From: Devosia sp. 66-14
GTDB lineage: Bacteria; Pseudomonadota; Alphaproteobacteria; Rhizobiales; Devosiaceae
Length of the DNA stretch: 57,647 nt
NCBI GenBank assembly: GCA_001899085.1
Contig: MKVB01000002.1
Location: 1-57,647, forward strand
Reading direction: 5' to 3'
Of this stretch, positions 21,646 to 39,559 are shown piece after piece. Each line of letters opens with the position of its first letter. Positions within the stretch are counted from its first letter, which is position 1. The position numbers and the translations under genes were made by a program. The notes beneath the pieces are model-generated. The model saw nothing but the letters and a program-made list of their open reading frames with translations. It did no database searches and was not told where the DNA came from.

Positions 21646-22359
21646 CTAGAAGGTCACGGCACGCAGGCGCGCATTGTGGATGTGGGTTTCCATGGCGAGT
21701 TCGGCCTTGGCCCGGTCGCGCGCCAGCAGTGCATCGATGATCTCGAGGTGGTCGGCCAGGGCCGGGGCGAGCACGACCGGGTTCAGCCGGATGCGGTCGA
21801 GCTGGATCATGCGCACGCGGATGGCGTTGATCGAATAGGCCTGGATCAGCACCTCGTTGCCGGTGGCGCCGATGAGGAAGTCGTGAAAGTCGGAATCGAT
21901 CTTCTGCGCTTCGTCGAGCAGGGCGCCGCTGATGCCAGTACTGCTGGCGCGCTCGAGGATCGAGGCGTGCAGCGCCCGCTGCTGCTGCAGCGCCGCGTCG
22001 CTCACATGCTCGATAGCATAGATGGTCGCCTCGCGCTCGTAGGCGAGGCGCATCTGGTAGGATTCGCGGATCATCCTGAGATCGACGGTGGTGATCTGGA
22101 TGCCGCGCTGCGGCAGCACCGCGAGCAGGCTCTCCGCCTCGAGCCGCGGCAGCAGTTCGCGCAGCGCGCCCAACGAGATGCCGAGTTTGCTGACGAGGTC
22201 GCGCTGCGACAGGTTCTGGCCGGGCTGGATCTGGCCGGCCAGCAGCAGGCGCTGGAAGCGCTGGTAGGCGGTCTGGCGGTTGAGCGTGTCGGTGCCGGCC
22301 GTGGTCCGCGGTCGGCGCGTCGCGCGCCGGGTCGGGGCGGTCAGGGCCTTGGTCGACAT
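21646..22359 (-). CDS. GntR-family regulator, FCD type
   Basis: A 237-residue regulator with an N-terminal winged helix (residues about 27-95: AYQRFQRLLLAGQIQPGQNLSQRDLVSKLGISLGALRELLPRLEAESLL) and an all-helical FCD effector domain. In the FCD part DFHDFLIGATGN, HLEIIDALLARD and METHIHNA supply the Asp/His residues that usually bind metal and the carboxylate ligand. It begins 37 bases after the aldolase stop and follows a strong AAGGAGG, so it is co-transcribed with the aldolase. It probably senses a sugar acid and controls the divergent importer. Confidence 0.88.
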   Translation of the reverse strand: MSTKALTAPTRRATRRPRTTAGTDTLNRQTAYQRFQRLLLAGQIQPGQNLSQRDLVSKLGISLGALRELLPRLEAESLLAVLPQRGIQITTVDLRMIRESYQMRLAYEREATIYAIEHVSDAALQQQRALHASILERASSTGISGALLDEAQKIDSDFHDFLIGATGNEVLIQAYSINAIRVRMIQLDRIRLNPVVLAPALADHLEIIDALLARDRAKAELAMETHIHNARLRAVTF

Positions 22360-22396
22360 ACGCGTTTGCCTCCTTCGCGCTTGCCTGAGCGTTAAC

Positions 22397-23362
22397 TCAA
22401 TCCTCTTCGCCTGGGAATTGGTATTGGCTCTGCCGGAAGCTGTCGATCAGCGCGGTGACGCCGGCGGCCGACAGCGGCAGCAGCGGCTCGAGCGGGCGCA
22501 TCCAGGCGGCGTCGCCGGCGATCCGCGCCTTCACCGCTTTGAGTGCGATGATGCCGCCGTGATCGTCGATGGCGGCGATCCGCTGCGCGGCGCGCTCGCA
22601 GATGCCCGCTGCTTCGGGGCCGGTGGGGCTGGCAAAGAAGCGGCAGAGTTCGATGGCGTTGACGTTGGGCAGGCCGCCGATCATGCCGGCGCCGCCGGCA
22701 GCGAGCAGGTCCGGCAGCACCCGATCGTCGCCGGTGAAGATCCTGAGGTTGGGGAAGGTCCGGGCCAGCATCAGGGTATGGGCGCGATCGCCGGTCGAGT
22801 CCTTGATGCCGACAATGCGCCTGCCGTGCCGGGCAACCAGGGCCTGCACCAGCTCGACGCCATAGCCGACCTTGGTCATGGCGGGGATGTGGTAGAGCAC
22901 GACATCGAGCGGGAACATGCCGCCGAAGCGGTTGGCGGCGGCCTCGAAGAAGGCGGCGATGCCGTCCTGACCGGCGGCGCCGTAATAGAAGGGCGGGGCA
23001 ATCAGCACGGCGCGGCAGCCCAGATCGGTCGCCGCGGCGATGGTGGCCACGGCATCGTCGAGCGCGGCGCTCATCGAGGCCGGGATCAGCCGGTCCATCG
23101 GCACGCCGGCCTGCTGCAGCGCCGCCAGCGCCGCCCGTTTCTCGCGCACCGAGAATGAGGCCCCCTCACCGGTCGAGCCGAAGGGCGAAACATAGCTGCA
23201 GCCGGCCGCAAACAGCCAGTCGAGATGCGACTTCAGTCGCACGATATCGATGCTTCCGGTGTCGGTGACGGGGGTCAGGGAGGCAGCGACGATACCGCCG
23301 AGAGCCTTGGAATTGCTGGCCTCATGGGCAGCTGCGAGTTCTTGTGTCACTGATACAATCAC
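22397..23362 (-). CDS. Dihydrodipicolinate synthase-family aldolase, probable N-acetylneuraminate lyase
   Basis: A 321-residue class I aldolase of the DapA/NanA superfamily. The GSTGE loop (62-66), catalytic Tyr157 (YHIP) and Schiff-base Lys187 (GIKDSTGD) are intact. DapA itself is a housekeeping enzyme; here the setting (sugar importer, sialidase-like protein, NanE and a NanK-like kinase) favours cleavage of sialic acid or a similar 2-keto-3-deoxy sugar acid to pyruvate plus amino sugar. The start is GTG 23362, with GTG 23350 as an alternative. Substrate specificity is inferred from context. Confidence 0.78.
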   Translation of the reverse strand: MIVSVTQELAAAHEASNSKALGGIVAASLTPVTDTGSIDIVRLKSHLDWLFAAGCSYVSPFGSTGEGASFSVREKRAALAALQQAGVPMDRLIPASMSAALDDAVATIAAATDLGCRAVLIAPPFYYGAAGQDGIAAFFEAAANRFGGMFPLDVVLYHIPAMTKVGYGVELVQALVARHGRRIVGIKDSTGDRAHTLMLARTFPNLRIFTGDDRVLPDLLAAGGAGMIGGLPNVNAIELCRFFASPTGPEAAGICERAAQRIAAIDDHGGIIALKAVKARIAGDAAWMRPLEPLLPLSAAGVTALIDSFRQSQYQFPGEED

Positions 23363-23495
23363 CAGATGGAGTAGTTGTTCAATCTATGTGTTTACACGAG
23401 CCGGATTCTGTTGCAAGGTCAATCCATCGCGATGGCGTGACGGCGGGTAAACGCTGCTGCCGGAGCGGTAGGACGTGCATGCTGGGAGGGCGCCG

Positions 23496-24590
23496 TTGGC
23501 CGAACTGCAACTTCAGAATGTCTCCAAGACCTACGGGACGTTCGAGGCGGTAAAGGATGTGTCGCTGGCGATCGAGGACGGCGAGTTCGCCGTGTTCGTC
23601 GGCCCCTCGGGTTGCGGCAAGTCGACCTTGCTGCGGCTGATCGCCGGGCTCGATCCGGTCAGCGCCGGCACGGTCGCCATCGGCGACAAGGACATGACGG
23701 CGCGGCAGGCGGGCGAGCGGCCTGTCGCCATGGTGTTCCAGTCCTACGCGCTCTACCCGCATATGAGCGTGTTCGAGAACATCGCTTTCCCGCTGCAGAT
23801 GGAGAAGCGCTCCAAGACCGAGATCCGCGAGGAGGTGGCGAAAGCCGCGGCCACGGTGCAGCTGACGACGCGGCTGCAGGACAAGCCGGCGAAACTCTCC
23901 GGCGGGCAGCGGCAGCGCGTGGCGATTGCCCGCGCCATCGTGCGCAAACCCGAGATTTTCCTGATGGACGAACCGTTGTCGAACCTCGACGCGGCCCTGC
24001 GCATGGAAATGCGCTCGGAACTCACCCGGCTGCACCAGCGGCTGGGCTCCACCATGGTTTATGTGACGCACGACCAGCTTGAAGCCATGACCATGGCCGA
24101 TCGCATCGTGGTGCTGAACGCCGGCAAGGTCGAGCAGGTCGGCAAGCCAATGGACCTCTATCACCGCCCGGCGAACCTGTTCGTCGCCGGCTTCATCGGC
24201 AGCCCGCCGATGAACTTTCTGGCTGGAAAGGTGGCGGGGCTGGAGGGCGGCAACGTGCTGCTCGAGGTGCCAGAGGTCGGGCGAGTGGCGTTGTCGGGCG
24301 ACGCCTCCGGCTTCAGTCTCGGCGGCGAGGCGACGATCGGCATCCGGCCCGAGGCCATCACCACCGTGGCACCGGCCGAGCCGGCTTTGGCGCTGACGCT
24401 GACGCCGCGCACGGTCGAGCGGCTGGGCCTTCACACCATCGTCTATGGCGAACTGGGCAGCCGGAAGTTGACCGCATTGTTCAACGGCGATCCGGCGATA
24501 GCAGCCGATGCGCCGCTCGCCATCCACGTGCCGCTCACTGAGATCCACCTGTTCGATGCCGCCGGCCAGGCCCGCGGGCGCCGCCACTGA
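23496..24590 (+). CDS. CUT1 sugar importer ATPase (MalK/UgpC type), system 1
   Basis: A 364-residue ATPase energising a carbohydrate importer. Walker A is GPSGCGKST, the signature LSGGQRQRV, Walker B IFLMDEPLSNLD, and the C-terminal TOBE/MalK regulatory domain follows FVAGFIGSPPMNF. GGGAGG just before TTG 23496 decides the start over the GTG at 23475. It is the first gene of a five-gene operon with binding protein, two permeases and a sialidase-like protein. As the only ATPase in the Nan region it may also serve system 2, which has none. Confidence 0.9.
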   Translation: MAELQLQNVSKTYGTFEAVKDVSLAIEDGEFAVFVGPSGCGKSTLLRLIAGLDPVSAGTVAIGDKDMTARQAGERPVAMVFQSYALYPHMSVFENIAFPLQMEKRSKTEIREEVAKAAATVQLTTRLQDKPAKLSGGQRQRVAIARAIVRKPEIFLMDEPLSNLDAALRMEMRSELTRLHQRLGSTMVYVTHDQLEAMTMADRIVVLNAGKVEQVGKPMDLYHRPANLFVAGFIGSPPMNFLAGKVAGLEGGNVLLEVPEVGRVALSGDASGFSLGGEATIGIRPEAITTVAPAEPALALTLTPRTVERLGLHTIVYGELGSRKLTALFNGDPAIAADAPLAIHVPLTEIHLFDAAGQARGRRH

Positions 24591-24662
24591 CGCGTTTCAT
24601 CGCCCGCGACCGAGGGGAGGAGGACCATGCCTCCGGTCGCGCGCTCAAAAGGGAGTAACGAG

Positions 24663-25940
24663 ATGACCTTCACCTCCAACCGCCGGCAGTTCCTGTTCGG
24701 CGCCGCCGCCAGCACACTGGCCATTACTGCCGCCGGCGGCCTGGGCCGGGCCTTCGCCCAGGATCAGCAACTGGTGTTCTGGTCGCAGCTGGCCGGCAGC
24801 AAGAAGGCGGCGGGCGAAGCGCTCGAGGCGGCCTTCAAGACGGCGCATCCGGGCATCGCGCTCAACTCGAGCCTGTTCGCCGAACCGAGCCAGCTGAACG
24901 AGAAAATCCTCACCGCCATCAACGGCAATACCGCGCCGGACCTGTTCATCCAGCACTGGGATTACACGCTGACCTATTCGACCGGCGACAAGCTGGCCGA
25001 CCTCAAGGCCGGCCTCGCCAATGTCGATTTCGCCGGCCTCGACGCCTCGCTCCTTGCCTATGGCAATATCGGCGGCCAGCAGGTCTCGGTGCCGCTCTAT
25101 GGCACGTCGCGTGGCCTCGGCATCAACCGCAAATACGTCACCGAAGCCGGGCTCGATGCCGACAAGGGACCGCAGGATTGGGCGGAGCTGCGCGAATGGG
25201 CCAAGGCGCTCACCAAGCGGCAGGACAATGGCCTGCTCGAAGTGGCCGGTCTCAGCATGTTCCACAACGATCTCGAGACCTGGGAAATCTTCACCCTGCT
25301 GCTGCAGGGGGCCGGCGGCACGCTGTTCAATGACGAGTTGACGGCGCCGGCTTTCGGCGGTGCCGAAGGGCTCGCGGCGATCAACTTCATGTTCGAGCTC
25401 CTGCACACCGACAAGGTCACCGATCTCGGTTTTGGCCTCGGGCCTGGCGGTTCGGCGAGCCCGATCAACCAGGGCCGCGCGGCGATGATCATCGCCGGCA
25501 ACTACTCGACCAATAACGCGCTGAAGGCCGGTATCGAGTTCGACGTGCTGCCCATCCCGATGGAGAAGGGTGGCTTCACCTCGCTGGTCGACCCGTTCAG
25601 CTTCGCGGTGACCAAGGCGTCGCCGAACCAGGCGGCAGCGCTGAGCTTCGTCGAATTCGCTCTGTCGCAGGAGCAGCAGGTGGCGTTCGCCCTGGCGTCG
25701 AAGAATGTGCCGGTGCTGAAATCGGCGCAGCAGGATCCGACCGTGCAGGCCGATCCCTTCCTATCGAAGTTCATCAAGACGGCGAGCTTCGCGCCGCCCA
25801 AGGCCGCGGCCATCCCGGCGTTCTCGCGCATGGTGACGATCATCGCCCGCGCCGTGCAGGAGACGCTGTTCAAGCGCGTTACCGCCGAGGAAGCACTGAA
25901 GGCCGCCGAGGCCGAGGTGATCGCGGTGCTGGGCCGCTAA
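24663..25940 (+). CDS. Extracellular sugar-binding protein, system 1
   Basis: A 425-residue periplasmic binding protein (family 1, MalE-like). The N-terminus SNRRQFLFGAAASTLAI is a twin-arginine motif followed by a hydrophobic stretch ending in AFAQ, so Tat export is likely. The mature part has the family pattern ending with aromatic-rich sugar-contact segments (VSVPLYGTSRGLGINRKYV). The ATG at 24663 follows GGGAG. It would capture the substrate, probably a sialylated or amino-sugar saccharide, for the permeases immediately downstream. Confidence 0.9.
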   Translation: MTFTSNRRQFLFGAAASTLAITAAGGLGRAFAQDQQLVFWSQLAGSKKAAGEALEAAFKTAHPGIALNSSLFAEPSQLNEKILTAINGNTAPDLFIQHWDYTLTYSTGDKLADLKAGLANVDFAGLDASLLAYGNIGGQQVSVPLYGTSRGLGINRKYVTEAGLDADKGPQDWAELREWAKALTKRQDNGLLEVAGLSMFHNDLETWEIFTLLLQGAGGTLFNDELTAPAFGGAEGLAAINFMFELLHTDKVTDLGFGLGPGGSASPINQGRAAMIIAGNYSTNNALKAGIEFDVLPIPMEKGGFTSLVDPFSFAVTKASPNQAAALSFVEFALSQEQQVAFALASKNVPVLKSAQQDPTVQADPFLSKFIKTASFAPPKAAAIPAFSRMVTIIARAVQETLFKRVTAEEALKAAEAEVIAVLGR

Positions 25941-25944
25941 GCCT

Positions 25945-26847
25945 ATGGCGCTCCAATCAAGCACAGCTCTGGCACGACGGCCGCAAAGCTTCACGCAGAA
26001 CTGGAGCGCCTACGCCTTCCTGACGCCGGCCCTGATCATCCTGTTCCTGTCGCTGCTGCTTCCGGCAGCAGCGACAGTGGTGATGAGCCTCACCGATATC
26101 TCGTTCCTCAGGCCGACCAATTTCGTCTGGTTCGACAACTACATCAAACTGGTGTCGGACAGCCGCTTCCGGCAGGCAGTGGGCAATACCGCCTATTACA
26201 CCGTCGGTGTGACGCTGCCGACCATGGCGCTGGGGCTGCTCGCGGCGGTGGCGCTCAATGGCAAGCTCCGCGGCCGCATCGTCTTCCGCACCATTTTCTA
26301 CCTGCCGGTGCTGACCTCGCTGATCGCCGCGGCGGTGGTCTGGATGTATGTCTACGAGCCCTATTCGGGGCCGATAAACGGCACGCTGGCGCAACTCGGG
26401 CTACCGCCGCAGCCCTGGCTGCAGAGCCCCAACCTCGCCATGACCTCACTGATCGTCATGGCGATCTGGCGCGATTTCGGCACCGCGATGATCATCTATC
26501 TCGCGGGCCTGCAGGATATTCCCAGGGACATCTACGAGGCGGCGCGGCTCGATGGGGCCAAGACCAAGGACGTCTTCTTCCGCATCACCGTGCCGATGCT
26601 CAGCAACGTCACCTTCTACCTGATGATCATCCTGATCGTGCAGACCTTCCAGGTGTTCGGCGCGATCTATGTGATGACCAATGGCGGGCCGCTCGGCTCC
26701 ACCGAAACCATCGTGTTCCAGATGTACCAGACCGCCTTCGGCTATACCGAGTTCGGCTATGCGGCGGCGATGTCGACCGTGCTGTTCCTCGCCATCCTGC
26801 TGTTCTCGATCATCGGCACCAAGATCATGCGCCGGGGTGAGTCATGA
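25945..26847 (+). CDS. CUT1 importer permease (MalF type), system 1
   Basis: A 300-residue inner-membrane permease with six predicted spans, the first at about 24-45. The EAA loop that contacts the ATPase reads YEAARLDGAKTKDVFFRITVP. It starts four bases after the binding-protein stop and overlaps the next permease by four bases (ATGA). Confidence 0.92.
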   Translation: MALQSSTALARRPQSFTQNWSAYAFLTPALIILFLSLLLPAAATVVMSLTDISFLRPTNFVWFDNYIKLVSDSRFRQAVGNTAYYTVGVTLPTMALGLLAAVALNGKLRGRIVFRTIFYLPVLTSLIAAAVVWMYVYEPYSGPINGTLAQLGLPPQPWLQSPNLAMTSLIVMAIWRDFGTAMIIYLAGLQDIPRDIYEAARLDGAKTKDVFFRITVPMLSNVTFYLMIILIVQTFQVFGAIYVMTNGGPLGSTETIVFQMYQTAFGYTEFGYAAAMSTVLFLAILLFSIIGTKIMRRGES

Positions 26848-27767
26848 GCGACATCGCGCAGGCCTCCGCCCCGGCCGTCCAGACGGTATCGTTCCAGCAG
26901 CGCTGGTGGCCGCTGGCCGAGCGGGCGATCGGCTACGGGCTGCTGATCTTTGCGGCGCTGGCAACGATCACGCCGTTCCTGTGGATGGTGTCAACCTCGT
27001 TCAAGACCGACGCCGAGACCTTCCAGTTTCCGCCCAACTTCATCCCGAGCAGCCTCGTCTGGCAGAACTATATCGACGCCATTGCCGGGCCCGATACCGG
27101 GCGGCAGTTGATCAACAGCCTGGTGTTCGCGCTCGGCTCGACCGTCTCCAACATGGTGTTCTGCGCGCTGGCCGGTTACGCCCTGGCGCGGATGCAGTTC
27201 AAGGGCAAGAACCTGATCTTCGCGCTGGTGGTCGGCCTCCTGATGGTCCCGGCGCAGAGCCAGATCGTGCCGGTGTTCCTGATCGTGCAGCGCATCCCGT
27301 TCGCCGGCGGCAATGACTGGCTGGGCAATGGCGGCACGGGTCTGCTCAATACCTATTGGGGAATGATCCTGCCCACCGCGGCGACGCCGTTCGGCATTTT
27401 CATGATGCGGCAGTTCTTCTCGCGCATCCCGATCGAGTACGAGGAATCGGCGCGGCTCGATGGGGCCAAGACCTTCACCATCTTCTGGCGCATCCTGCTG
27501 CCGCTGGCGAGGCCGGCGATGGCGGTACTGGGGGTGCTGAGCTTCCAGAGCGCCTGGAACGATTTCATCTGGCCGCTGATCCTCACCTCGCAGCGCGAAA
27601 TGGCGACGCTGCAGATCGGCCTGCAACTGTTGCAGAGCGGGCCTGATGCGCGCTGGAACGTGGTGATGGCGATGGCGACACTGATCACCCTGCCGGTGAT
27701 CATCGTGTTCCTGTTCGCGCAGCGCTACGTCATCGACGGCGCGGTCACCAGCGGCGTCAAGGGCTGA
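26844..27767 (+). CDS. CUT1 importer permease (MalG type), system 1
   Basis: A 307-residue MalG-type permease. Six spans are visible, and the EAA loop is YEESARLDGAKTFTIFWRIL, matching the partner's loop. The C-terminus SGVKG is the usual MalG ending that contacts the ATPase. It forms the transmembrane heterodimer with the preceding permease. Confidence 0.92.
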   Translation: MSDIAQASAPAVQTVSFQQRWWPLAERAIGYGLLIFAALATITPFLWMVSTSFKTDAETFQFPPNFIPSSLVWQNYIDAIAGPDTGRQLINSLVFALGSTVSNMVFCALAGYALARMQFKGKNLIFALVVGLLMVPAQSQIVPVFLIVQRIPFAGGNDWLGNGGTGLLNTYWGMILPTAATPFGIFMMRQFFSRIPIEYEESARLDGAKTFTIFWRILLPLARPAMAVLGVLSFQSAWNDFIWPLILTSQREMATLQIGLQLLQSGPDARWNVVMAMATLITLPVIIVFLFAQRYVIDGAVTSGVKG

Positions 27768-27823
27768 CGCCTTCCACCCCGAATTACGACCCGGCCCTCC
27801 CTGGGCCCGACGGAGATTTGACC

Positions 27824-28912
27824 ATGATCCAGAACCTCGAAATCTACCGCAAGGAGGGTGAGTTCGTCGCCTGGCCGGCCAATTACGGCATGTGGATCTG
27901 GGGCGATGAAGTGGTGGTGGTGTTTTCGCAGGGGTTTCGCGGCGAACAGGAGAGCCTGCACGCCCGCGACAAGACGCGGCCGTTCATCGGCCGGCAGGCG
28001 CGCAGTCTCGATGGCGGGCTGAGCTGGAGCGACGAGCTGTTGACCGGCACGATCCCTGGCGGCACCTCGCTGTCGGGCGACGAGCACGTGATCGAGGCGC
28101 TGCAGAGCCAGCCCAATATCGTGGTCGAACGCGATATCCCGGGGCTCGACCAGCCGATCGATTTCACCGATCCCGAGACCATCGTGATGTGCGCGCGCAC
28201 CGGGCTCGATGCGGGTTCGATCAGCTGGTTCTATGTCAGCCGCGATCGGGCGAAGAGCTGGCAGGGGCCATACCGGCTGGGCGACTTCGGACTGCCGGGC
28301 GTTTCGGCGCGCACCGATATCGTGCCGCTCGGCCAGCATGACGCGCTGTTCCTGCTCACGGCAGTGAAGGCCAATGGCGACGAGGGTCGGATCTTTGCGG
28401 CGCGGACCCGTGATGGCGGCAAGAGCTTCAGCTTCGAGAGCTTTGTCGGTGACGAGCCGGAAGGGTTCGCCATCATGCCGGCGTCGCTGCGGCTGCCCGA
28501 CGGGGACATTCTCACCTTCGTGCGCTGCGCTGCGCCGCGCGGTCCGGGGCGCCGGGCCTGGATCGACCTCTATCGCTCGGGCGATGAGGGCAAGAGCTGG
28601 CGGCATGTCGGGGTGCCGGTGCCGCAGGTCGGGCACAATGGCAACCCGCCGACCATCAACCAGCTGGCCGATGGACGGCTGGTGCTGGTCTACGGCTACC
28701 GCGATGCGCCCTATGGCATGCGCGCCCGGGTCAGCAGCGACGAGGGCGCAAGCTGGAGCGACGATATCGTGCTGCGCGACGATGGCGGCGTGGCGGATCT
28801 CGGTTACCCGCGCACGGTGCTGCGCGCGGATGGGAAGCTCTTGACGGCGTACTATTACAACTACGGTGCGGATACCGATCGCTTCATCGGGGCGACGTTG
28901 TTCTCGGTGTAA
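27824..28912 (+). CDS. Sialidase-superfamily (BNR/Asp-box) protein, cytoplasmic
   Basis: A 362-residue six-bladed propeller protein of the sialidase superfamily. Five Asp-box motifs are visible (SLDGGLSW, SRDRAKSW, TRDGGKSF, SGDEGKSW and SSDEGASW). There is no signal peptide, so it should act in the cytoplasm on an imported glycoside. ATG 27824 has GGAG eight bases upstream; TTG 27818 is less likely. Gene order after the importer suggests it removes terminal sialic acid or a related sugar, but the superfamily also includes other glycosidases and lyases, so the reaction is not certain. Confidence 0.75.
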   Translation: MIQNLEIYRKEGEFVAWPANYGMWIWGDEVVVVFSQGFRGEQESLHARDKTRPFIGRQARSLDGGLSWSDELLTGTIPGGTSLSGDEHVIEALQSQPNIVVERDIPGLDQPIDFTDPETIVMCARTGLDAGSISWFYVSRDRAKSWQGPYRLGDFGLPGVSARTDIVPLGQHDALFLLTAVKANGDEGRIFAARTRDGGKSFSFESFVGDEPEGFAIMPASLRLPDGDILTFVRCAAPRGPGRRAWIDLYRSGDEGKSWRHVGVPVPQVGHNGNPPTINQLADGRLVLVYGYRDAPYGMRARVSSDEGASWSDDIVLRDDGGVADLGYPRTVLRADGKLLTAYYYNYGADTDRFIGATLFSV

Positions 28913-29121: not shown

Positions 29122-29811
29122 TCAGCGCCCCGGAATCGCCGCCACCAGCCGCTCGGTGATGATGTCGGGCGCGGTGATGGCAGAGCCGCAGACCACGGCG
29201 AAGGCGCCGCGTTCGAACGAGGCGGCGACGTGTTCGGGGGTCCAGATGCCGCCTTCGACCACCAGCGGCACGCCGAGTGTGCCGACGATCTCGGATACCA
29301 GGTCGAGCGGCGGGCGGGCCTGGCCCTCGGTCAGTGCGGTGTGGCCGACCATGGTGGTGGCGATCAGGTCGGCGCCTTCGGCGGCGGCCTGCCGCGCTTC
29401 ATCGAGCGTCGCGATATCGGCCATCACGAGCTTGCCGAGCCGGTGGGCGGTCTCCGCAATCTCGGCAAAGCTCTCGCTCGGCCGGGTCCCCGTAGTCGCC
29501 TGAATGGCGACGATGTCGGCGCCGGCCGCGCACAACGCTTCGGCGTCGGCGCTGGAGGTGGTGATGTAGTTGTCAAAGCCCTCGCGGGTGTCCTTGACGA
29601 TACCGATGATCGGCAGGCCGGTGCGTGGTCGCAGCAGGCCGACGACCTCGGCGCCGTTGAGGCGGAAGCCGCCGGCGCCGCCGAGTTCGGCCGCTTCGGC
29701 GAGCAGCGCCAGGATGTCGGGGCGCTGGCGCAGCGGGCTCAGGGGGTTCATCGCCTGCGAGGAAACGATCAGCTGGCGCTCGAGGCGCTTGAGCAGGGTA
29801 GGGCTAGTCAC
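29122..29811 (-). CDS. nanE: N-acetylmannosamine-6-phosphate 2-epimerase
   Basis: A 229-residue TIM-barrel epimerase that converts ManNAc-6-P to GlcNAc-6-P. The NanE-like pattern is clear: GFRLNGAEVVGLLR, GIVKDTREG, ADIATLDEARQAAAEGADLIATTMVGHT and VVEGGIWTPEHVAASFERGA, with GSAITAPDIIT as the phosphate-binding end. The GTG start overlaps the DUF4127 stop (GTGA), so the two are co-translated. Together with the NanK-like kinase and the lyase it makes the Nan route; nagA and nagB must lie elsewhere. Confidence 0.93.
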   Translation of the reverse strand: MTSPTLLKRLERQLIVSSQAMNPLSPLRQRPDILALLAEAAELGGAGGFRLNGAEVVGLLRPRTGLPIIGIVKDTREGFDNYITTSSADAEALCAAGADIVAIQATTGTRPSESFAEIAETAHRLGKLVMADIATLDEARQAAAEGADLIATTMVGHTALTEGQARPPLDLVSEIVGTLGVPLVVEGGIWTPEHVAASFERGAFAVVCGSAITAPDIITERLVAAIPGR

Positions 29812-31352
29812 GAGAGATCCCCGGCGATGGTGAAGTCGACTTCAAAACTGCGGTGCCAGGGGAAGCGGACGGCAGTGATGCCGAGATCGTTCCGCCCGGT
29901 GAGGCGCTTGAGGGTGGCGTCGAGGCCGGCGCCGATGCTGGTTTCGGCCGCTGCCTCCTCGGTGCGGTCGGGGAAGGTGTAGACGCCGGCGTTCAACGGC
30001 CGACGCACGTCGGTCATGTAGGCGAAATCCTCGATCAACCGGTGCAGCAGCACCCGGCGGGCGGCGGCGGCATCGAGGGTGCCGGCAGCGCGACCGATCT
30101 GGATCGCGGCGGCCGCGGCGACCACTGAACCCAGCGCATTGCCGGCGGTGTTCCAGCCGCCATAGGCGACGAGCTCGAGCAGGATGCCACGCCGGTGCAG
30201 CTCTTCGATCAAGAGCGGGTCGGCGCCGTTGGAATAGCGGAGGTCGGCGAGGGCCACTTCGCGGCCGGCGGCCAGCAGGCGGGCGATGAGATCGGCGGTC
30301 CTGTTGGCCTCGGCGGCATCATCGGTATCGAAGATCGACTCGGCGCCGGATTTTTCGACCACCATGCCGCAATGGTCGCGACGCCTCGGGTCTGGCGCAT
30401 GGACGACGAGGGCCATGGCCTCGGGGTCGGTGACGGTCACCGAGCCCGAGGCGCGGAGCTGGCGGTCGACCGCCTCGTGCATCGGGCTGTTCTCATATTT
30501 GGCGATGCGCTGCATGCCCGGCGGATCGGCGCATTCGACGGTAAAGCGGGGGGTGACGCCGAAGCGGGCGCCGAGCTGACGCGCCACCAGCACCGCGGCC
30601 ACCTCGTCGGCGCCGGGATACATCAGCACCTCGCCCGATATCGGCAGCACGTGGCTCCACTGCTTCAGCCAGACCTGCTCGACCGAGCCGGCCGAGTGTT
30701 CGGCGGTATCGTCGGCGGTGATCAGCAGCGGGTCGATGGCGCCTTCGGACGCGAGCGCGATGGCTTCGAGATTGACGTGATGGTTGCGCAGCCGCCGGCG
30801 CTCGAAATCGGCGACGATCTCACCGGGGAGCGCCGCGCGCAACGCGGCGAGCGCCTCGGCATTGCCGGCATGGCTGGCGCCAAGGGTTTCGAGCAGGTCG
30901 CGATGGTGCAGCGCGCCGAGCTTATGCAGCTCCATGCCGTGCCGGGCCCAGTAATCGGGCTCTTCCTGCGGGTTGTAGGAGTTGGAGGCGCGCATCACCA
31001 GCGACACGGCGCAGAGCAGCAGCGCCGGATGCGCGGCATGGAGGCGGCGCAGCACATCGAGCCGGGTGAGGGCGTCGAGCGTCGTATCGGCGGTGGTGCG
31101 TGCGGCGATCAGGCCGCCATAGCAGAGCATGTCGAGCGAGGCGATCACCGCATCGGTCGTCGGCGCCGTGCTTTCGAGCCAGCGGCCGAGGCCGTCGGCA
31201 TCGCCGGGCTGGCGCAGCCGGGGCAGCAGTTCGGGCGGCGGCAACACCAGGCTGGCGCCCGCGATGGCGGCGATACCGGCGGGCAGGCCGATATTGACCG
31301 GGCGCTCATCGAGGGGAAGGAAGGCAAGCGAAAGGGCACGTTTGGACGTCAA
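29808..31352 (-). CDS. DUF4127 family protein
   Basis: A 514-residue cytoplasmic protein of the DUF4127 family, function unknown. It opens with LAFLPLDERPVNIGLP and contains SLDMLCYGGLIAARTT, MRASNSYNPQEEPDYWARHG, LLITADDTAEHSAGSVEQ and YGGWNTAGNALGSVVA, all family-typical. Asp, Glu, Asn and His-rich patches suggest an enzyme, perhaps a hydrolase, but no named fold is obvious. TTG 31352 overlaps the UTRA regulator stop and its own stop overlaps nanE, so it is locked into the amino-sugar operon. Confidence 0.85.
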   Translation of the reverse strand: MTSKRALSLAFLPLDERPVNIGLPAGIAAIAGASLVLPPPELLPRLRQPGDADGLGRWLESTAPTTDAVIASLDMLCYGGLIAARTTADTTLDALTRLDVLRRLHAAHPALLLCAVSLVMRASNSYNPQEEPDYWARHGMELHKLGALHHRDLLETLGASHAGNAEALAALRAALPGEIVADFERRRLRNHHVNLEAIALASEGAIDPLLITADDTAEHSAGSVEQVWLKQWSHVLPISGEVLMYPGADEVAAVLVARQLGARFGVTPRFTVECADPPGMQRIAKYENSPMHEAVDRQLRASGSVTVTDPEAMALVVHAPDPRRRDHCGMVVEKSGAESIFDTDDAAEANRTADLIARLLAAGREVALADLRYSNGADPLLIEELHRRGILLELVAYGGWNTAGNALGSVVAAAAAIQIGRAAGTLDAAAARRVLLHRLIEDFAYMTDVRRPLNAGVYTFPDRTEEAAAETSIGAGLDATLKRLTGRNDLGITAVRFPWHRSFEVDFTIAGDLS

Positions 31353-32095
31353 TTCGTGTTGTCTCGGCTCGTGCGGAAAATGACGAAATCGTAGGAATAG
31401 CGGTCGGCGCGGTAGACGCTCTCGGCATATTCGATGCGCTGGTTCCTCGCGTCATAGGCGACGCGCAGCACTTTGAAGGCCGGTGAGAATTCCGGGACGC
31501 CGAGGAGTTTTGCCAAGGGCGGATCGAGCACCGTGGCGTGGATCGACTGTTCGGCCTTCTCGATCTTCAGGTGATAGGTTTCGGTCAGCATCTGGTAGAG
31601 CGAACCGGTGATGCCGCGCGCCGCGAGGCCTGGCGCGAGCTTCGAAGGCACATAGGTGTTCTCGATGCACATCGGCTCGCCGTCGGCGGTGCGGACGCGC
31701 GAGATATGGGCGACCAGGTCACGCGGGCTGAGCGCCAGGCGGGCGCCGATCTCGGCGCCGGCGGGAATCTCTTCCACTACCGTATCGAGCGAACCCGGGA
31801 CCAGGCCACGCGCCCGCATGTCCTGGGTGAACGAGGTCAGTTCCACCGATTTGGCGATGCGCGGTTCGGAGACGAAGGTGCCGGCCCCCTGCGTGCGGTA
31901 GACGCGGCCTTCGTAACCCAACTGGTCGAGGGCGCGGCGCACGGTGAGGCGGGTGACGCCGAAGGTTTCGGCGAGGTCGCGCTCGGTGGGCAGCTTTTCG
32001 TGCGGCTTCAGTTCGCCCTCGATAAGGCCGAGCAGATAGCTCCGCAACTGGGCGCCCTTGGTGCCCGCGCGACCGTTTCCAGCGGCCTCAGCCAT
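31349..32095 (-). CDS. GntR-family regulator, HutC/UTRA type
   Basis: A 248-residue repressor with a GntR winged helix (LPTERDLAETFGVTRLTVRRALDQL, about residues 31-65) and a C-terminal UTRA sugar-sensing domain (residues about 95-245). UTRA regulators such as DasR and NagR bind phosphorylated amino sugars, which fits a NanE product. GGAGGAAATCCGATC precedes ATG 32095. It leads the regulator-DUF4127-nanE operon and is divergent from the system 2 importer. A dre-like site lies in the shared region. Confidence 0.9.
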   Translation of the reverse strand: MAEAAGNGRAGTKGAQLRSYLLGLIEGELKPHEKLPTERDLAETFGVTRLTVRRALDQLGYEGRVYRTQGAGTFVSEPRIAKSVELTSFTQDMRARGLVPGSLDTVVEEIPAGAEIGARLALSPRDLVAHISRVRTADGEPMCIENTYVPSKLAPGLAARGITGSLYQMLTETYHLKIEKAEQSIHATVLDPPLAKLLGVPEFSPAFKVLRVAYDARNQRIEYAESVYRADRYSYDFVIFRTSRDNTN

Positions 32096-32155
32096 GATCG
32101 GATTTCCTCCACTCGCGCATATCAAAGCACAGTTCGTTCATGCCGGGCAAGTGAG

Positions 32156-32167
32156 TGGTATACTCCA
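32156..32167. promoter_or_regulatory. Candidate dre-like UTRA regulator operator
   Basis: TGGTATACTCCA keeps the TGG...CCA frame and central TA of the DasR/NagR consensus TGGTCTAGACCA. It lies between the divergent UTRA regulator and the binding protein it probably controls. Confidence 0.5.
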
Positions 32168-32211: not shown

Positions 32212-32241
32212 TTGACGGGCTTCGAAAAATTGGGCTACACC
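32212..32241 (+). promoter_or_regulatory. Possible promoter of the system 2 operon
   Basis: TTGACG (32212-32217) and TACACC (32236-32241) are 18 bases apart, 34 bases before the binding-protein ATG. The -10 hexamer is only a partial match. Confidence 0.35.
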
Positions 32242-32274
32242 ATTTGACGGCATGTAGCCAAGGGAGAATTCAGG

Positions 32275-33534
32275 ATGGAGCGGAAAGCTCAAGCTCGTGC
32301 GGCGCATGCCGCGATGTCGACCGCGCTGGGCGCGGTCATGCTGCTGGGCGGGGCGCTCGGCGCCTCCGCGCAGGACAAGACCGAGATCACCTTCTCGTAT
32401 CTGTGGGGCGGCGCGGAGGGCGCGGCGCTCGAGCAGATCATCAGCGACTTCAACGCCAGCCAGGACAAGATCGTGGTCAAGGGCGTGTCGAGCCCCGACA
32501 TGACCAAGCAGCTGGCTTCGATGTCGAGCGCCAAGGGCGCCTTCGACATCTCGGACAACTTCGCCTCCAACATTGCCTCGTGGTCGAACCAGGGCATCCT
32601 GCTGCCGCTGGACGAATTCGGCCTCGATACCTCGGATTTCCCCGAGAGCATCATGAAGCAGTTGGTGGTCGACGGCGTGCTCTATTCGGTGCCGATCGCG
32701 ACCCACAATTTCCAGCTGGTCTACAACAAGAAGCTGCTCGATGAAGCCGGCGTCACGCCGCCGACCTCGATGGCCGAACTCGCCGAGGCCATCAAGAAGC
32801 TGACCAAGGTGGATGCCGAGGGCAACGTCACCCAGCTCGGCCTCGGGCTCACCGACATCTCGGCTGGTTTGAAGACGCTCGGCTATGCGCATGGCGGCGA
32901 CTGGAACCGTGACGGCAAGCCCACGCCGACCGATCCGGGGTTCGTCGAAGGCGTGCAGTTCTACTACGACAACGTGGTGGCGCCGGTGACCCCCGCGGCC
33001 TACAACAAGTTCGTCGCTGGCTTCGGCCCCTATATGTCGGACCAGGACTCGTTCAAGCAGGGCAAGATTGCCATGGTGTTCGAGGGCGAATGGCGCGCCA
33101 AGTTCAATACCGAAGCCGGTATGGATTGGGGCGTGGTGCAGGTGCCGGGCAAGACGCCCGAGCTCAACGGCTCGACCTGGGCTGACGTGTCGACGATCTT
33201 CATTCCGACCAACACGCAGAACAAGGAAGCGGCAGGCGAGTTCCTCAAGTACCTGATCAGCCCGCCGGCGATGGAAAAGTTCAGCCACGTGCTGGCCAAC
33301 CTGCCGGGCCGCCTGTCGCTGGTCGACAGCGCCACCTATGACGACCTGCCGAACTTCAAGGTCTGGCTCGACGCGCTGAAGAACCCCAACACGCACGGCC
33401 TGCCGCCGGCGCTGTACATGGCCGAATACAATGCCGACCTGGCGTCCGCATTCGACTCGGTGCTGCAGGGCGCCCAGACTCCGGAAGCGGCCCTCAAGGC
33501 CGTTGCCGACCGCACTGGCTCGTACTCGCAGTAA
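32275..33534 (+). CDS. Extracellular sugar-binding protein, system 2
   Basis: A 419-residue periplasmic binding protein with a Sec-type signal (TALGAVMLLGGALGASAQ). The mature domain has the MalE-like pattern, including VPIATHNFQLVYNKKLLDEAGV and AMVFEGEWRAKFN. It begins the plus-strand operon of the Nan island and is followed directly by the permease. It probably binds an amino-sugar or sialic-acid-containing ligand different from that of system 1. Confidence 0.9.
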   Translation: MERKAQARAAHAAMSTALGAVMLLGGALGASAQDKTEITFSYLWGGAEGAALEQIISDFNASQDKIVVKGVSSPDMTKQLASMSSAKGAFDISDNFASNIASWSNQGILLPLDEFGLDTSDFPESIMKQLVVDGVLYSVPIATHNFQLVYNKKLLDEAGVTPPTSMAELAEAIKKLTKVDAEGNVTQLGLGLTDISAGLKTLGYAHGGDWNRDGKPTPTDPGFVEGVQFYYDNVVAPVTPAAYNKFVAGFGPYMSDQDSFKQGKIAMVFEGEWRAKFNTEAGMDWGVVQVPGKTPELNGSTWADVSTIFIPTNTQNKEAAGEFLKYLISPPAMEKFSHVLANLPGRLSLVDSATYDDLPNFKVWLDALKNPNTHGLPPALYMAEYNADLASAFDSVLQGAQTPEAALKAVADRTGSYSQ

Positions 33535-33538
33535 GCTG

Positions 33539-34468
33539 TTGCAGAGCGCGCGTCTCAGACAGAGCGAACCGACCGGCCGGGCCCTTCTCAAGGGCCTGGC
33601 CTTCGCTTCGCCATTCATCATCGGCTTTTTGGTGCTCTACCTGTGGCCGATCCTCGCTTCGGGTTATTACAGCCTCACCGATTTCAGCCTGTTCAAGGCG
33701 CCCAAATGGGTTGGGCTGGCCAATTACGAGCGGATGATCTCGGACGCCAAATTCTGGAAGAGCCTCTACAACACGCTGTTCTTCACTTTCGTCGGTGTGC
33801 CGGTGGATATCGCGATCTCGATCGCCGGCGCCCACATCCTCAACCAGAAGCTCAAGGGCCAGCCGCTCTGGCGCGCCCTGGTCTACCTGCCCTCGATCGT
33901 GCCGGCGGTGGCGGCGGGCTTTCTGTGGCGCTGGTTGCTCAATGCGCAATACGGCTTCGTCAACGAGATCCTGCGCTGGTTCCGCATTCCGCAGCCGAAC
34001 TGGCTGCTCGATGCCAGCTGGGGCGGCATCTCGGTGATCGTGCTCATGCTGTGGACGGTGGGCGGCACCATGCTGATCTACCTCGCGGCGCTGAAGAACG
34101 TCCCGCAGGAGCTCTACGAGGCCGCCGAACTCGACGGCGCCGGGCCGCTGCGCCGCTTCTGGCACATCACCTGGCCGATGATCTCACCGGTGACGCTGTT
34201 CCAGGTGATCGTCCTGATCATTGCGTTCCTGCAGGTGTTCACGCAGCCCTTCGTGCTGTCCAAGGACCCGGGGCTCGGCACGCAGACCGCGACCGGGCCG
34301 GGCGACTCGATGCTGAGCTACTCGATCTACCTGTTCCAGAACGGCTTCACCTTCCTGAAAATGGGCTACGCCTCGGCGATGGCCTGGGTGCTGCTGTTCG
34401 TGACGCTGGCCATCACCTTGCTGATCCTGTGGTCGGCCAAGAAGTGGGTGTTCTATGACAACCGCTGA
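33539..34468 (+). CDS. CUT1 importer permease (MalF type), system 2
   Basis: A 309-residue permease with six spans starting near residue 21 (ASPFIIGFLVLYLWPILASGYY). The EAA loop is YEAAELDGAGPLRRFWHITWP. There is no ATG near the N-terminus; TTG 33539, four bases after the binding-protein stop, gives the expected length, and CTG 33536 is possible. Weak ribosome binding suggests translational coupling to the binding protein. Confidence 0.87.
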   Translation: MQSARLRQSEPTGRALLKGLAFASPFIIGFLVLYLWPILASGYYSLTDFSLFKAPKWVGLANYERMISDAKFWKSLYNTLFFTFVGVPVDIAISIAGAHILNQKLKGQPLWRALVYLPSIVPAVAAGFLWRWLLNAQYGFVNEILRWFRIPQPNWLLDASWGGISVIVLMLWTVGGTMLIYLAALKNVPQELYEAAELDGAGPLRRFWHITWPMISPVTLFQVIVLIIAFLQVFTQPFVLSKDPGLGTQTATGPGDSMLSYSIYLFQNGFTFLKMGYASAMAWVLLFVTLAITLLILWSAKKWVFYDNR

Positions 34469-35333
34469 GTATCAGGGCACGACGCTGGGCGAGCGCGTGC
34501 CGGTGGGCGGCCGCTTCGGCTGGCTGATGACCATCTACCGTTACGCCCTGGTGATCCTTCTCGCCGGGGTATTCGTGTTCCCGTTCGTCGTCATGCTGAC
34601 GACGGCGTTCAAGGTCTCGGACGAGATCTTCATGGCGCCGCCGGAGCTGTTGCCGCGCACCTGGACGCTCGACCATTTCGTCGGCGCGCTGACGCAGATC
34701 CCGTTCTTCCGGTTTCTGCTCAATACGGTGGTGATTGCCGGCCTGAGCGTCCTCGGTACCGTGCTGGTTTCGCCGCTGGTCGCCTACTCGTTGTCGAAGC
34801 TGCGCTGGAAGGGTCGGAACCTGCTCTTCATCATGGTGCTCGCCACCATGATGCTGCCGCCGCAGGTGACGCTCATTCCGATCTACATGATGTGGAACAA
34901 GGTCGGCGCCACCGGCACCATCCTGCCGCTGGTGATCCCGGCTTTCCTCGGCACGCCGTTCTTCATCTTCCTGATCCGGCAGTTCCTCTTGAGTGTGCCC
35001 GACGAGCTGATCGAGGCGGCGAAGGTCGATGGCGCGTCGGAGTTCCGCATCTACTGGTCGATCGTCCTGCCGGTCGCCCGGCCGGCGCTGATCACCTCGG
35101 CGGTGTTCCAGTTCGTCTGGGCGTGGACGGATTTCCTCTATCCGCTGATCTACCTCAACGACGAGGAGAGCTACACGCTGTCGATCGGGCTCTACTCGTT
35201 CCTCGGCCAGCACGGGGTGCAGTGGGGACCGCTGATGGCAGCCTGCGTGCTGTTCACGCTGCCGGCCTTCCTGATCTTTTTGGTGTTCCAGCGCTACTTC
35301 ATCGGCGGCATCGCCACGGGTGCGCTGAAGTGA
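34455..35333 (+). CDS. CUT1 importer permease (MalG type), system 2
   Basis: A 292-residue permease with six spans and EAA loop IEAAKVDGASEFRIYWSIVLP. It overlaps the upstream permease by 14 bases and its TGA overlaps the GTG of the kinase gene. No ATPase gene follows, so this importer must borrow an ATPase, most likely that at 23496. Confidence 0.91.
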   Translation: MTTAEYQGTTLGERVPVGGRFGWLMTIYRYALVILLAGVFVFPFVVMLTTAFKVSDEIFMAPPELLPRTWTLDHFVGALTQIPFFRFLLNTVVIAGLSVLGTVLVSPLVAYSLSKLRWKGRNLLFIMVLATMMLPPQVTLIPIYMMWNKVGATGTILPLVIPAFLGTPFFIFLIRQFLLSVPDELIEAAKVDGASEFRIYWSIVLPVARPALITSAVFQFVWAWTDFLYPLIYLNDEESYTLSIGLYSFLGQHGVQWGPLMAACVLFTLPAFLIFLVFQRYFIGGIATGALK

Positions 35334-36238
35334 GCGAGCTTGCCCTCGCCGTCGATATCGGCGGCACCAAGATCCTCGTCGGGCTGATCGATGCCCGGGG
35401 CACCATCGTGGTCAGCCGGCAAGTCGCGACGCCGGCGCGCGAGGGGGCGGAAGCGATCATCGCCGCTGTCGCCGGATTGGCGCGTCAGGTGCTGGCCGAT
35501 GCGCCGTCAGGGGTCAGCCGCTGCGGCGTCGGCACGGCCGGCGTGGTCGGCGAGCAGGGCGAGATCACCTCGGCGACCGATCACCTGAGCGGCTGGGCCG
35601 GCACCAGGCTGCAGCAGCGGCTCGGCGAAGAACTCGGCATACCGGTGATCGTGCTCAACGACGTGCAGGCCTCGGGGCTCTGCGAAGGCGTGCTCGGCGC
35701 CGCGGGCGGCAGACGCTCGGCACTGATCGTGGCGCTCGGCACCGGGGTCGGCGGTTCGCTGGTGCGCAACGGCAAGGTCGAGCGCGGTGCCTATGGCATT
35801 GCCGGCAGTGTCGGGCATCACCTCTCGCCGCTGCGTCAGGGGCGTCGGTGCCCATGCGGCGGCACCGACCATCTCGAGGCCTATGCCAGCGGCACGGCAA
35901 TGGAACTGGAATATGCGCGGCGCACCGGCGAGGCGCGCAGCCTGCGCGAGATCGCGACGCTGGCCGAGGCCGACGATGCCGAGGCGCAGTCGGTGATCGC
36001 CGAGGCCGCGGAAGTGCTGGGCGCGGTGCTGGGCAGCGCCAACAACGTGGTCGATGCCGAGATCATCGTGGTGGCCGGCGGCGTGCTGGCGCTGGGTGAG
36101 CGGCTGCTCGAGCCGGCCCGCACCGCGGCCGGGCGCGAGGCGCTGGGGCTGTCGAAAGCCGTCGAGATCGTGCCGGCCAAGTTCGGGCCAACGGCGTGTT
36201 TGATCGGCGCGGCACTCGCGGCGTTCGGGGCGGTTTGA
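35330..36238 (+). CDS. nanK: ROK-family sugar kinase, probable N-acetylmannosamine kinase
   Basis: A 302-residue ROK kinase. The ATP site is DIGGTK (9-14), the catalytic base Asp111 sits in VLNDVQA, and the second phosphate motif is ALGTGVGGSLV. The usual GExGH motif reads GSVGHH (159-164), and the zinc motif CxCGxxGCxE reads CPCGGTDHLE, with one Cys replaced by His. E. coli NanK also lacks the Glu of GExGH, which supports a ManNAc role. GTG 35330 overlaps the permease stop. nanE lies 5.5 kb away in the divergent operon. Confidence 0.82.
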   Translation: MSELALAVDIGGTKILVGLIDARGTIVVSRQVATPAREGAEAIIAAVAGLARQVLADAPSGVSRCGVGTAGVVGEQGEITSATDHLSGWAGTRLQQRLGEELGIPVIVLNDVQASGLCEGVLGAAGGRRSALIVALGTGVGGSLVRNGKVERGAYGIAGSVGHHLSPLRQGRRCPCGGTDHLEAYASGTAMELEYARRTGEARSLREIATLAEADDAEAQSVIAEAAEVLGAVLGSANNVVDAEIIVVAGGVLALGERLLEPARTAAGREALGLSKAVEIVPAKFGPTACLIGAALAAFGAV

Positions 36239-38794: not shown

Positions 38795-39559
38795 TCAGTG
38801 CATGTACCAGCCGCCATCCACATGGATGGTCTGCCCGGTAATGAACGAGGCCGCGTCGGAGGCGAGGAACATCAGGATGTTGGCGATGTCGCCAGGGGCG
38901 CCGCGGCGCTGCAGCGCCTGCGCTTCGTAGATGCGCTTCTCGTAGGCAGCGAGGTCGGGGTGGATCTTTTCGGCATCGGTGGGGAAGGCGCCCGGTGCCA
39001 CCGCGTTGACGGTGATGCCGTGCTTGCCGAATTCGCGCGCCCAGGAGCGGGTGAGGCCGACAAGCGCCATCTTTGACTGCACATAGGGCGTCAGGTCCGA
39101 CCAGCCGCCCGAGATGGTCACCGAGGAGATGTTGATGATCCGCCCGCGCTTTGTCGTCTTCATGTGGGGCAGCGCCACCTGCACGCAGACGATGCCGGCA
39201 TCGACATTGATGCGCTGCACCAGCTGCATCTCTTCGATGCTGTAATCCTCGAACGGCTTTGACGGGTAGATCGCCGCGTTGTTGATGACGATGTCGAAGC
39301 CGCCGACTTCGGCAGAGAGTTTCTGCAGCCCGGCGCGCAGCCCGGTGAGATCGGCGAGATCGAGCTTGGCCACGGTCAGCCCACCGAGGCCCTCTGCGGC
39401 GGCGAGCAGCGCCGCAACCTTGTTGGCATCATTGTCGATGGCGACGACCCTGGCGCCGGAACGCAGCAATTCGAGCGTCGTCTCGAGCCCCAGCCCGCCG
39501 GCGGCGCCGGTATAGAGGATGGTCCTGTTCTCGAGCGAGCCGAAGCGATCCGCGCCCAT
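38795..39559 (-). CDS. Short-chain dehydrogenase/reductase
   Basis: A 254-residue classical SDR with the cofactor loop TGAAGGLG (residues 17-24), the NNAAIYP segment, and the catalytic Ser-Tyr-Lys set (ISSVTISGGWSDLTPYVQSK). Aspartate in AIDNDANK suggests NAD(H) preference. In this operon it could oxidise a sugar to its lactone/acid or a 2-keto-3-deoxy acid. The ATG overlaps the epimerase stop by one base (TGATG). Confidence 0.9.
   Translation of the reverse strand: MGADRFGSLENRTILYTGAAGGLGLETTLELLRSGARVVAIDNDANKVAALLAAAEGLGGLTVAKLDLADLTGLRAGLQKLSAEVGGFDIVINNAAIYPSKPFEDYSIEEMQLVQRINVDAGIVCVQVALPHMKTTKRGRIINISSVTISGGWSDLTPYVQSKMALVGLTRSWAREFGKHGITVNAVAPGAFPTDAEKIHPDLAAYEKRIYEAQALQRRGAPGDIANILMFLASDAASFITGQTIHVDGGWYMH

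Follow-up and report, generated by a model that had tools for sequence, protein, structure and literature searches.

We found that a gene of the DUF4127 family (PF13552) in a 57647-base stretch of contig MKVB01000002.1 from Devosia sp. 66-14 (the window, by which we mean this whole stretch) belongs to a conserved cassette of two divergent operons, in which it stands between a regulator gene and nanE and faces genes for a sugar ATP-binding cassette (ABC) transporter and a ROK-family kinase. We give about an even chance to the reading that this cassette serves a sugar yielding N-acetylmannosamine (ManNAc) and that DUF4127 is an uncharacterised family of carbohydrate-active enzymes, most likely glycosidases. 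DUF4127 is held to be carbohydrate-active because the set of transporter, ROK kinase and NanE lacks only a step that frees ManNAc, and DUF4127 fits this slot. The cassette, its conservation and its operator matches are established, and from here on we infer the chemistry and the substrate of DUF4127. No mention of DUF4127 or PF13552 was found in the literature searched.

The first operon is encoded on the minus strand. Its regulator gene (31349-32095) encodes a GntR/HutC-type protein with a UTRA sensor domain (Pfam for the open reading frame (ORF) 31349-32125: UTRA, E 1.5e-39; GntR, E 5.4e-17) and begins with an ATG at 32095 that has GGAGG upstream, a start picked from the coding score and the upstream sequence. 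The DUF4127 gene (29808-31352, TTG start) encodes a protein of 514 amino acids that matches PF13552 with an E of 5.6e-127 and 424.7 bits against a gathering score of 27, covering profile positions 2-488 of 489; by eye, it has no evident signal peptide. The nanE gene (29122-29811, GTG start) encodes an N-acetylmannosamine-6-phosphate 2-epimerase (Pfam NanE PF04131, E 1e-41, 142.7 bits against a cut-off of 27), and its score of 201.9 bits against the cut-off of 189 for NCBIfam NF002231 places it in the subfamily as well. Both the DUF4127 and the PF04131 match of the window were the only ones in the whole genome. A reading of the window made without database searches (the sequence-only reading) had claimed that these three genes overlap by four bases each, and the coordinates bear this out, with TTGA shared head to tail by the regulator and DUF4127 genes and GTGA by the DUF4127 and nanE genes. 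In addition, the order GntR-DUF4127-NanE was kept in all six additional Devosia loci that the genome scan yielded (L014-L019), so the Devosia arrangement is not due to chance.

The divergent operon, on the plus strand, starts with a gene for a sugar ABC transporter substrate-binding protein (32275-33534; PF13416, E 1.1e-31), followed by two ABC transporter permease genes (33539-34468, with PF00528 found for the ORF 33431-34468 and the start set by coding score; and 34455-35333, also PF00528). The last gene (35330-36238; PF00480, E 1e-51 for the ORF 34892-36238) overlaps the upstream permease gene by 4 bases, its start again being set by coding score, and encodes a ROK kinase. Its best NCBIfam family by E-value was N-acetylmannosamine kinase, and its scores stayed under the NanK cut-offs (135.6 against 283 and 115.3 against 450 bits); we regard it as a ROK kinase with putative N-acetylmannosamine specificity. 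Two genes elsewhere in the genome passed the nagA cut-off.

To follow DUF4127 beyond Devosia, we scanned one genome per species and obtained 438 relatives. The best 80 were kept, so the sample leans toward the window's kin; 28 of the 80 loci were not longer than 20 kb, and genes in the loci were called by a codon-score script rather than a standard gene finder, so that starts may be off. With E. coli nanE as query, a nanE homologue was found in the fetched stretch of 47 of the 80 loci, all from other genomes (36/52 among those longer than 20 kb), compared to about 0.3 expected by chance (one nanE per 5.7 Mb; 1.47 Mb of loci). Of these 47 homologues, 28 lay one or two genes off, two lay further than six genes off, and 17 were located five or six genes upstream, for the most part within the divergent transporter operon, as in Microbacterium. 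ROK genes were present in 41 of the 80 loci. Within seven genes of DUF4127, permeases were counted in at least 53 loci, binding proteins in at least 46, NanE in at least 46, GntR in at least 41 and ROK in at least 38, these being lower bounds because only the largest clusters were counted. The association of DUF4127 with nanE spans Devosia, Actinomycetota, Chloroflexota, Armatimonadota and plasmids of Bacillota. Thus, the neighbourhood survey that the sequence-only reading had called for did find the association with amino-sugar genes, in several phyla, and the proposal of DUF4127 as a candidate for an unknown amino-sugar step survives the possibility that its relatives elsewhere show no such association.

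Among the first five plasmid loci, nanE was present in three (Carnobacterium, Priestia and Enterococcus) and was not found in Deinococcus L010 and Subdoligranulum L013; near the L010 copy of DUF4127 are a GH20-type gene and nagZ. The annotation of the plasmid loci Alkaliphilus L177 and Deinococcus ficus L178, which is incomplete, likewise lists no nanE. We also scanned 69 of 96 unassigned operon partners against Pfam; the 27 dropped were near-duplicates, short ones, oligopeptide-transporter genes, NanE-like barrels and four L072 genes. Gfo/Idh oxidoreductases (9), glycoside hydrolase family 38 (GH38; 8), LacI (6) and GlcNAc (N-acetylglucosamine) 2-epimerase (4) were found among these 69. Furthermore, across the 80 loci DUF4127 shares its operon with an FAD-dependent oxidoreductase gene 17 times, with PF12831 in the two scanned; loci with this partner include L053, L057, L058, L059, L060, L063, L064, L068, L070 and L073.

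DUF4127 was detected in 7 of 19 genomes of the window's genus and, in a sample of the phylum, in 1 of 398, the window's own. In a tree of 85 proteins, which omits the contig fragment L027, an actinobacterial clade encloses the Devosia proteins, and this nesting, together with the sporadic distribution, suggests that Devosia gained the cassette horizontally. The window's binding protein, permease and regulator have counterparts in Actinomycetota at 47-64% identity, and for the binding protein, 14 of the 30 loci L020-L049 have a homologue at 47-55% identity. The sporadic occurrence and the nesting could also mean that the co-location is a by-product of the transfer of one actinobacterial cassette, in which DUF4127 would be a passenger without a pathway step. 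We consider this very improbable, since NanE linkage recurs in other gene orders in Chloroflexota, Armatimonadota and Bacillota. Moreover, the nanE label required 16 changes on the tree, compared to 27.0 when shuffled, and none of 500 shuffles was as low, a difference to which near-copies contribute. Tree branches with nanE-linked DUF4127 were found in Bacillota, Armatimonadota, Chloroflexota, Actinomycetota and Pseudomonadota.

Shared control of the two operons is suggested by their intergenic region. The 12-base pattern TGGTNTANNCCA, whose underlying consensus we take to be that of dre operators, matches there at 32156-32167 on the plus strand (TGGTATACTCCA) and at 32231-32242 on the minus strand (TGGTGTAGCCCA). 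These are the only two matches in all 57647 bases, where 0.09 were expected, and none of 100 shuffles had two. The pattern was framed after inspecting the intergenic region, so the fair test lies in other loci. There, of the 35 other loci with a neighbouring GntR gene, 22 had a match in either orientation upstream of that gene (6/6 in Devosia, 16/29 in others); including the window, the count is 23 of 36, whereas resampled sequence gave 0.025 on average and never more than 1. Each of the Devosia loci L014-L019 has two dre-type sites. For comparison, control loci were taken from 297 genomes of the window's order: 40 of the 42 nanE matches above 160 bits were used, which come from 37 genomes other than the window's and have no DUF4127. 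Only 4 of these 40 had the pattern anywhere in the stretch, so their regulators probably use other sites. As described in PMC4333415, dre sites are bound by NagR in B. subtilis, are similar to DasR sites and lie upstream of nagA-nagB-nagR and nagP; by count, TGGTCTAGACCA is present once in that text. With GntR and UTRA domains and a dre-type operator adjoining its gene, the window's regulator is a probable member of the NagR/DasR-type GntR/HutC proteins. The two divergent operons would accordingly constitute one NagR/DasR-type regulated cassette, with the two matches as predicted operator sites.

The sequence-only reading had offered the processing of a modified sialic acid as one possible role of DUF4127, which the loci did not support. 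A nanA-like gene was found in 1 of the 80 DUF4127 loci at 60 bits or more and in 2 at 30 bits or more. None of the 12 matches in the window's own genome reached the TIGR00683 cut-off (best, 223.6 against 382); with no NanA in the cluster or over the cut-off in the genome, the cassette does not qualify as a sialic-acid (nan) operon. A gene of the dihydrodipicolinate synthase (DHDPS) family in the window scored 64.7 against the same cut-off. In the 40 control nanE loci, DUF4127 was found in none, ROK in 32 and a nanA-like gene (60 bits) in 4, so the lack of nanA is not specific to DUF4127 loci. The window's binding protein matched only 9 of the 40 controls, with a best identity of 28.7%. Since close binding proteins occur in the DUF4127 loci and not in the controls, the DUF4127 cassettes probably import a different substrate.

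A variant nan operon is still conceivable if DUF4127 were a non-homologous replacement of NanA, releasing ManNAc and a keto acid by cleavage of an imported nonulosonic acid. The set of transporter, DUF4127, ROK kinase and NanE corresponds slot by slot to a nan operon whose NanA is missing, the invariant arginines R17, R85, R121 and R187 would suit a carboxylate, and a DHDPS-family gene and a BNR protein are encoded further along the window. However, among the other Devosia loci L014-L019, the fetched stretch shows genes for the BNR and left-hand binding proteins in L017 alone. A DHDPS homologue was detected in none of the six, of which L015 is a contig of just 7 kb and L017 was fetched over a stretch too short to reach the expected place of that gene. 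In addition, GH38 was the commonest glycosidase family among the operon partners scanned, and paralogues of DUF4127 with signal-like sequences and carbohydrate-binding domains suit a glycan cutter better than a lyase for free sugars. We therefore regard a NanA replacement as unlikely.

These paralogues came from a search of 35 genomes, in which DUF4127 had five matches in the Georgenia genome behind L093 and three in the Ruania genome behind L082; the only other genome with several matches, that of L047, held two pieces of one gene. Three of the six paralogues scanned from Georgenia and Ruania have an F5/8-type C domain above cut-off at their C-terminal end, one has an NPCBM-associated match just under cut-off, and five start with signal-like sequences (by eye); the paralogue L173:11518-13830 was called from inside its domain. 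A domain architecture with carbohydrate-binding modules (CBMs), as in glycoside hydrolases, is thus present in paralogues and not in the window protein itself; in comparisons with the PDB, the window protein showed no kinship in sequence or fold to a characterised glycoside hydrolase family. Of all the evidence for activity of DUF4127 on glycans, we consider the fusion to binding modules the strongest. The paralogue genes of L173-L175 are clustered, with genes for ABC transporters, LacI and FAD oxidoreductases close by and once also a gene for a pectate-lyase-like protein; these clusters are possible polysaccharide utilisation loci built on DUF4127.

The structure prediction and fold search proposed in the sequence-only reading succeeded in their first half: a confident model was obtained, and no known fold was matched with confidence. 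By sequence, the PDB held no convincing relative of DUF4127 (best E 0.16 and 0.56). The AlphaFold2 model of the window protein reached a predicted local distance difference test (pLDDT) score of 94.8 and a predicted template modelling score (pTM) of 0.95. When the whole model was compared to the PDB by Foldseek, there were no matches at E <=0.001, and query-normalised template modelling (TM) scores were at most 0.22 among the matches listed. The first 268 residues modelled alone (pTM 0.92) likewise gave no convincing PDB match, only weak alpha/beta proteins with TM-scores of at most 0.42 among the matches listed; three matches had E <0.001, with TM-scores of 0.24-0.34. Foldseek was the only method of fold comparison, so a distant or permuted match could escape. 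The search is able to find relatives, since the viral protein A0A346TNQ6 matched the whole model (E 2.3e-28, TM 0.78). No match was found by tblastn with the window DUF4127 against a phage collection, and a viral-contig scan confirmed none of 56 candidates.

Over 13 diverse members, the invariant residues include D15, R17, R85, R121, R187, D214, D215, D249, W400 and N401, and eight of these ten lie at most five residues after a predicted strand in the AlphaFold2 model. Residues just after strands form the active site in many alpha/beta enzymes. Among charged and amide residues, only Asp, Arg and Asn are represented in the invariant set, which contains no Ser, His or Cys. In the Alkaliphilus L177 protein D214 is apparently replaced by Glu (by eye), so D215 and D249 are the firmer catalytic candidates. 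A DE pair is a feature of GH20 hexosaminidases; the YPGADEV motif was considered as such a pair and rejected, its Glu being unconserved in four of the five aligned signal-bearing paralogues. Kinship to GH20 was set aside as well, with no GH20-type fold among the Foldseek matches listed; no profile comparison with GH20 was made.

The same residues bear on two other chemistries. DUF4127 could act as a deacylase or phosphohydrolase on an imported derivative of ManNAc, stripping off an acyl, phosphate or similar group; genes resembling acetyl-xylan esterases or glucuronoyl esterases are recurrent neighbours, and the weak Foldseek matches of the N-terminal part include alpha/beta hydrolases. We think this improbable, because the family offers no invariant Ser, His or Cys, esterases encoded beside it would then be superfluous and the TM-scores of the fragment are no higher than 0.42 among the matches listed. 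Alternatively, DUF4127 could be a glycoside phosphorylase whose arginine cluster binds phosphate, giving a sugar 1-phosphate and ManNAc. The four invariant arginines with invariant aspartates would fit, as would a cytoplasmic enzyme beside an ABC transporter, which is a typical setting of phosphorylases. However, the 69 operon partners gave 59 Pfam families, and the 25 of these that were listed include no phosphoglucomutase-type family; in addition, the paralogues have signal-like N-termini, which are unusual in phosphorylases; we judge this alternative quite unlikely.

For the glycosidase reading, the following pathway is proposed. The ABC transporter would import a ManNAc-containing oligosaccharide or glycoside, which cytoplasmic DUF4127, most likely as a glycosidase, would cut to free ManNAc. 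It would draw on an arginine-rich pocket of R17, R85, R121 and R187 and on carboxylates from the set D15, D214, D215 and D249. The ROK kinase, judging by its family, would form ManNAc-6-phosphate, and NanE, by family assignment, would turn this into GlcNAc-6-phosphate for NagA, presumably from the genes elsewhere in the genome. By binding the two dre-type sites, the UTRA regulator would keep both operons repressed as long as no amino-sugar phosphate is present. A more specific version is possible, though we hold it to be rather doubtful: in a new-fold family, a cytoplasmic N-acetylmannosaminidase-type branch would feed the kinase and NanE, and a secreted, CBM-bearing branch would attack polysaccharides. 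The term N-acetylmannosaminidase was not found in the literature searched. A family of unknown function with 438 relatives thus becomes a testable enzyme, for which the cassette suggests ManNAc or its phosphate as product and supplies a binding protein that can be screened for ligands, and residues for mutagenesis follow from the alignment. If true, the reading would introduce a class of enzymes acting on glycans that contain N-acetylmannosamine, and with it a fold new among solved carbohydrate-active enzymes.

Several observations weigh against this reading. No known glycosidase fold matched the DUF4127 model (Foldseek against the PDB). The missing nanA is not diagnostic, as 36 of the 40 same-order control nanE loci also lack it; mutual exclusion of DUF4127 and NanA, under which nanA was expected in nanE operons without DUF4127, gained no support from the 4 of 40 that have it. 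Likewise, loci with a phosphotransferase system (PTS) should be without ROK, and the pattern was mixed: L009 and L012 had no ROK match, but L011 had two ROK genes. A nanE homologue was absent from the fetched stretch of 33 of the 80 loci. Among the genomes behind these loci 21 carry nanE elsewhere, and in 12 of the 33 genomes searched, for which completeness figures are lacking, no NanE was found. The sequence-only reading had called DUF4127 locked into an amino-sugar operon; the linkage stands, and "locked" was too strong.

Some of these 12 genomes offer substitutes. In three Chloroploca loci, a GlcNAc 2-epimerase-family gene (PF07221) adjoins DUF4127, and its product would epimerise ManNAc ahead of phosphorylation. 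L086 has a small NanE-like barrel protein, a type found in five Nonomuraea, Microtetraspora and Jiangella loci, two of which were aligned to NanE (hhalign probability 84.6%, E 6.8e-6), and L027 is a contig fragment. A GlcNAc 2-epimerase-family gene also lies two genes upstream of DUF4127 in L087, whose genome has four NanE matches as well. To judge from these loci, DUF4127 is what remains where the epimerase is exchanged. Unexplained are seven Chloroflexota metagenome-assembled genomes (MAGs; L050, L051, L052, L062, L065, L067 and L078), in which none of these epimerase alternatives was found. With such loci, the DUF4127 family is wider than one pathway. Further points on the same side are the L034 copy, which lies beside a uronate isomerase gene; the Alkaliphilus plasmid copy in L177, with no sugar genes annotated nearby; and the Deinococcus ficus plasmid locus L178, where a shorter DUF4127 gene adjoins polysaccharide-synthesis genes including wecB. 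The neighbours of L177:7821-9476 are hflK, hflC and hypothetical proteins, and its DUF4127 has a signal-like N-terminus. The wecB gene of L178 marks a setting where UDP-ManNAc would be made.

Compared to known systems, the window resembles the E. coli nan operon (nanA, nanT, nanE, nanK, nanR) in encoding NanE, a ROK kinase, a transporter and a GntR-type regulator side by side. It differs in having no nanA over cut-off, an ABC transporter in place of NanT, the added DUF4127 and a UTRA-type regulator, whereas E. coli NanR is of the FCD type. It shares a UTRA-type GntR regulator and TGGTNTANNCCA-type operator matches with NagR/DasR (GntR/HutC) regulons, but its sites sit between a DUF4127-nanE and a transporter-kinase operon. 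The same-order loci L103-L134 are alike in NanE and ROK, mostly with GntR and ABC genes, and 28 of these 32 are likewise without a nanA-like gene at 60 bits; in contrast to the window, they have no DUF4127, their binding proteins are at most 28.7% identical to the window's, and few have the dre-type pattern. Secreted multi-domain glycosidases carry the same type of C-terminal domain (F5/8-type C) as the three DUF4127 paralogues, but the DUF4127 domain has no sequence match or confident fold match to a solved enzyme.

Elsewhere in the window, a second sugar cassette (21646-28912) faces the nanE end. It comprises genes for an FCD-type GntR regulator, the DHDPS-family lyase, a UgpC-type ATPase, a binding protein, two permeases and a BNR_2 protein; the best NCBIfam family of the lyase was dapA, under cut-off. 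A gene of another uncharacterised family, DUF4432 (39559-40737; PF14486, E 5.5e-97), adjoins a short-chain dehydrogenase gene and lies near an ABC permease gene.

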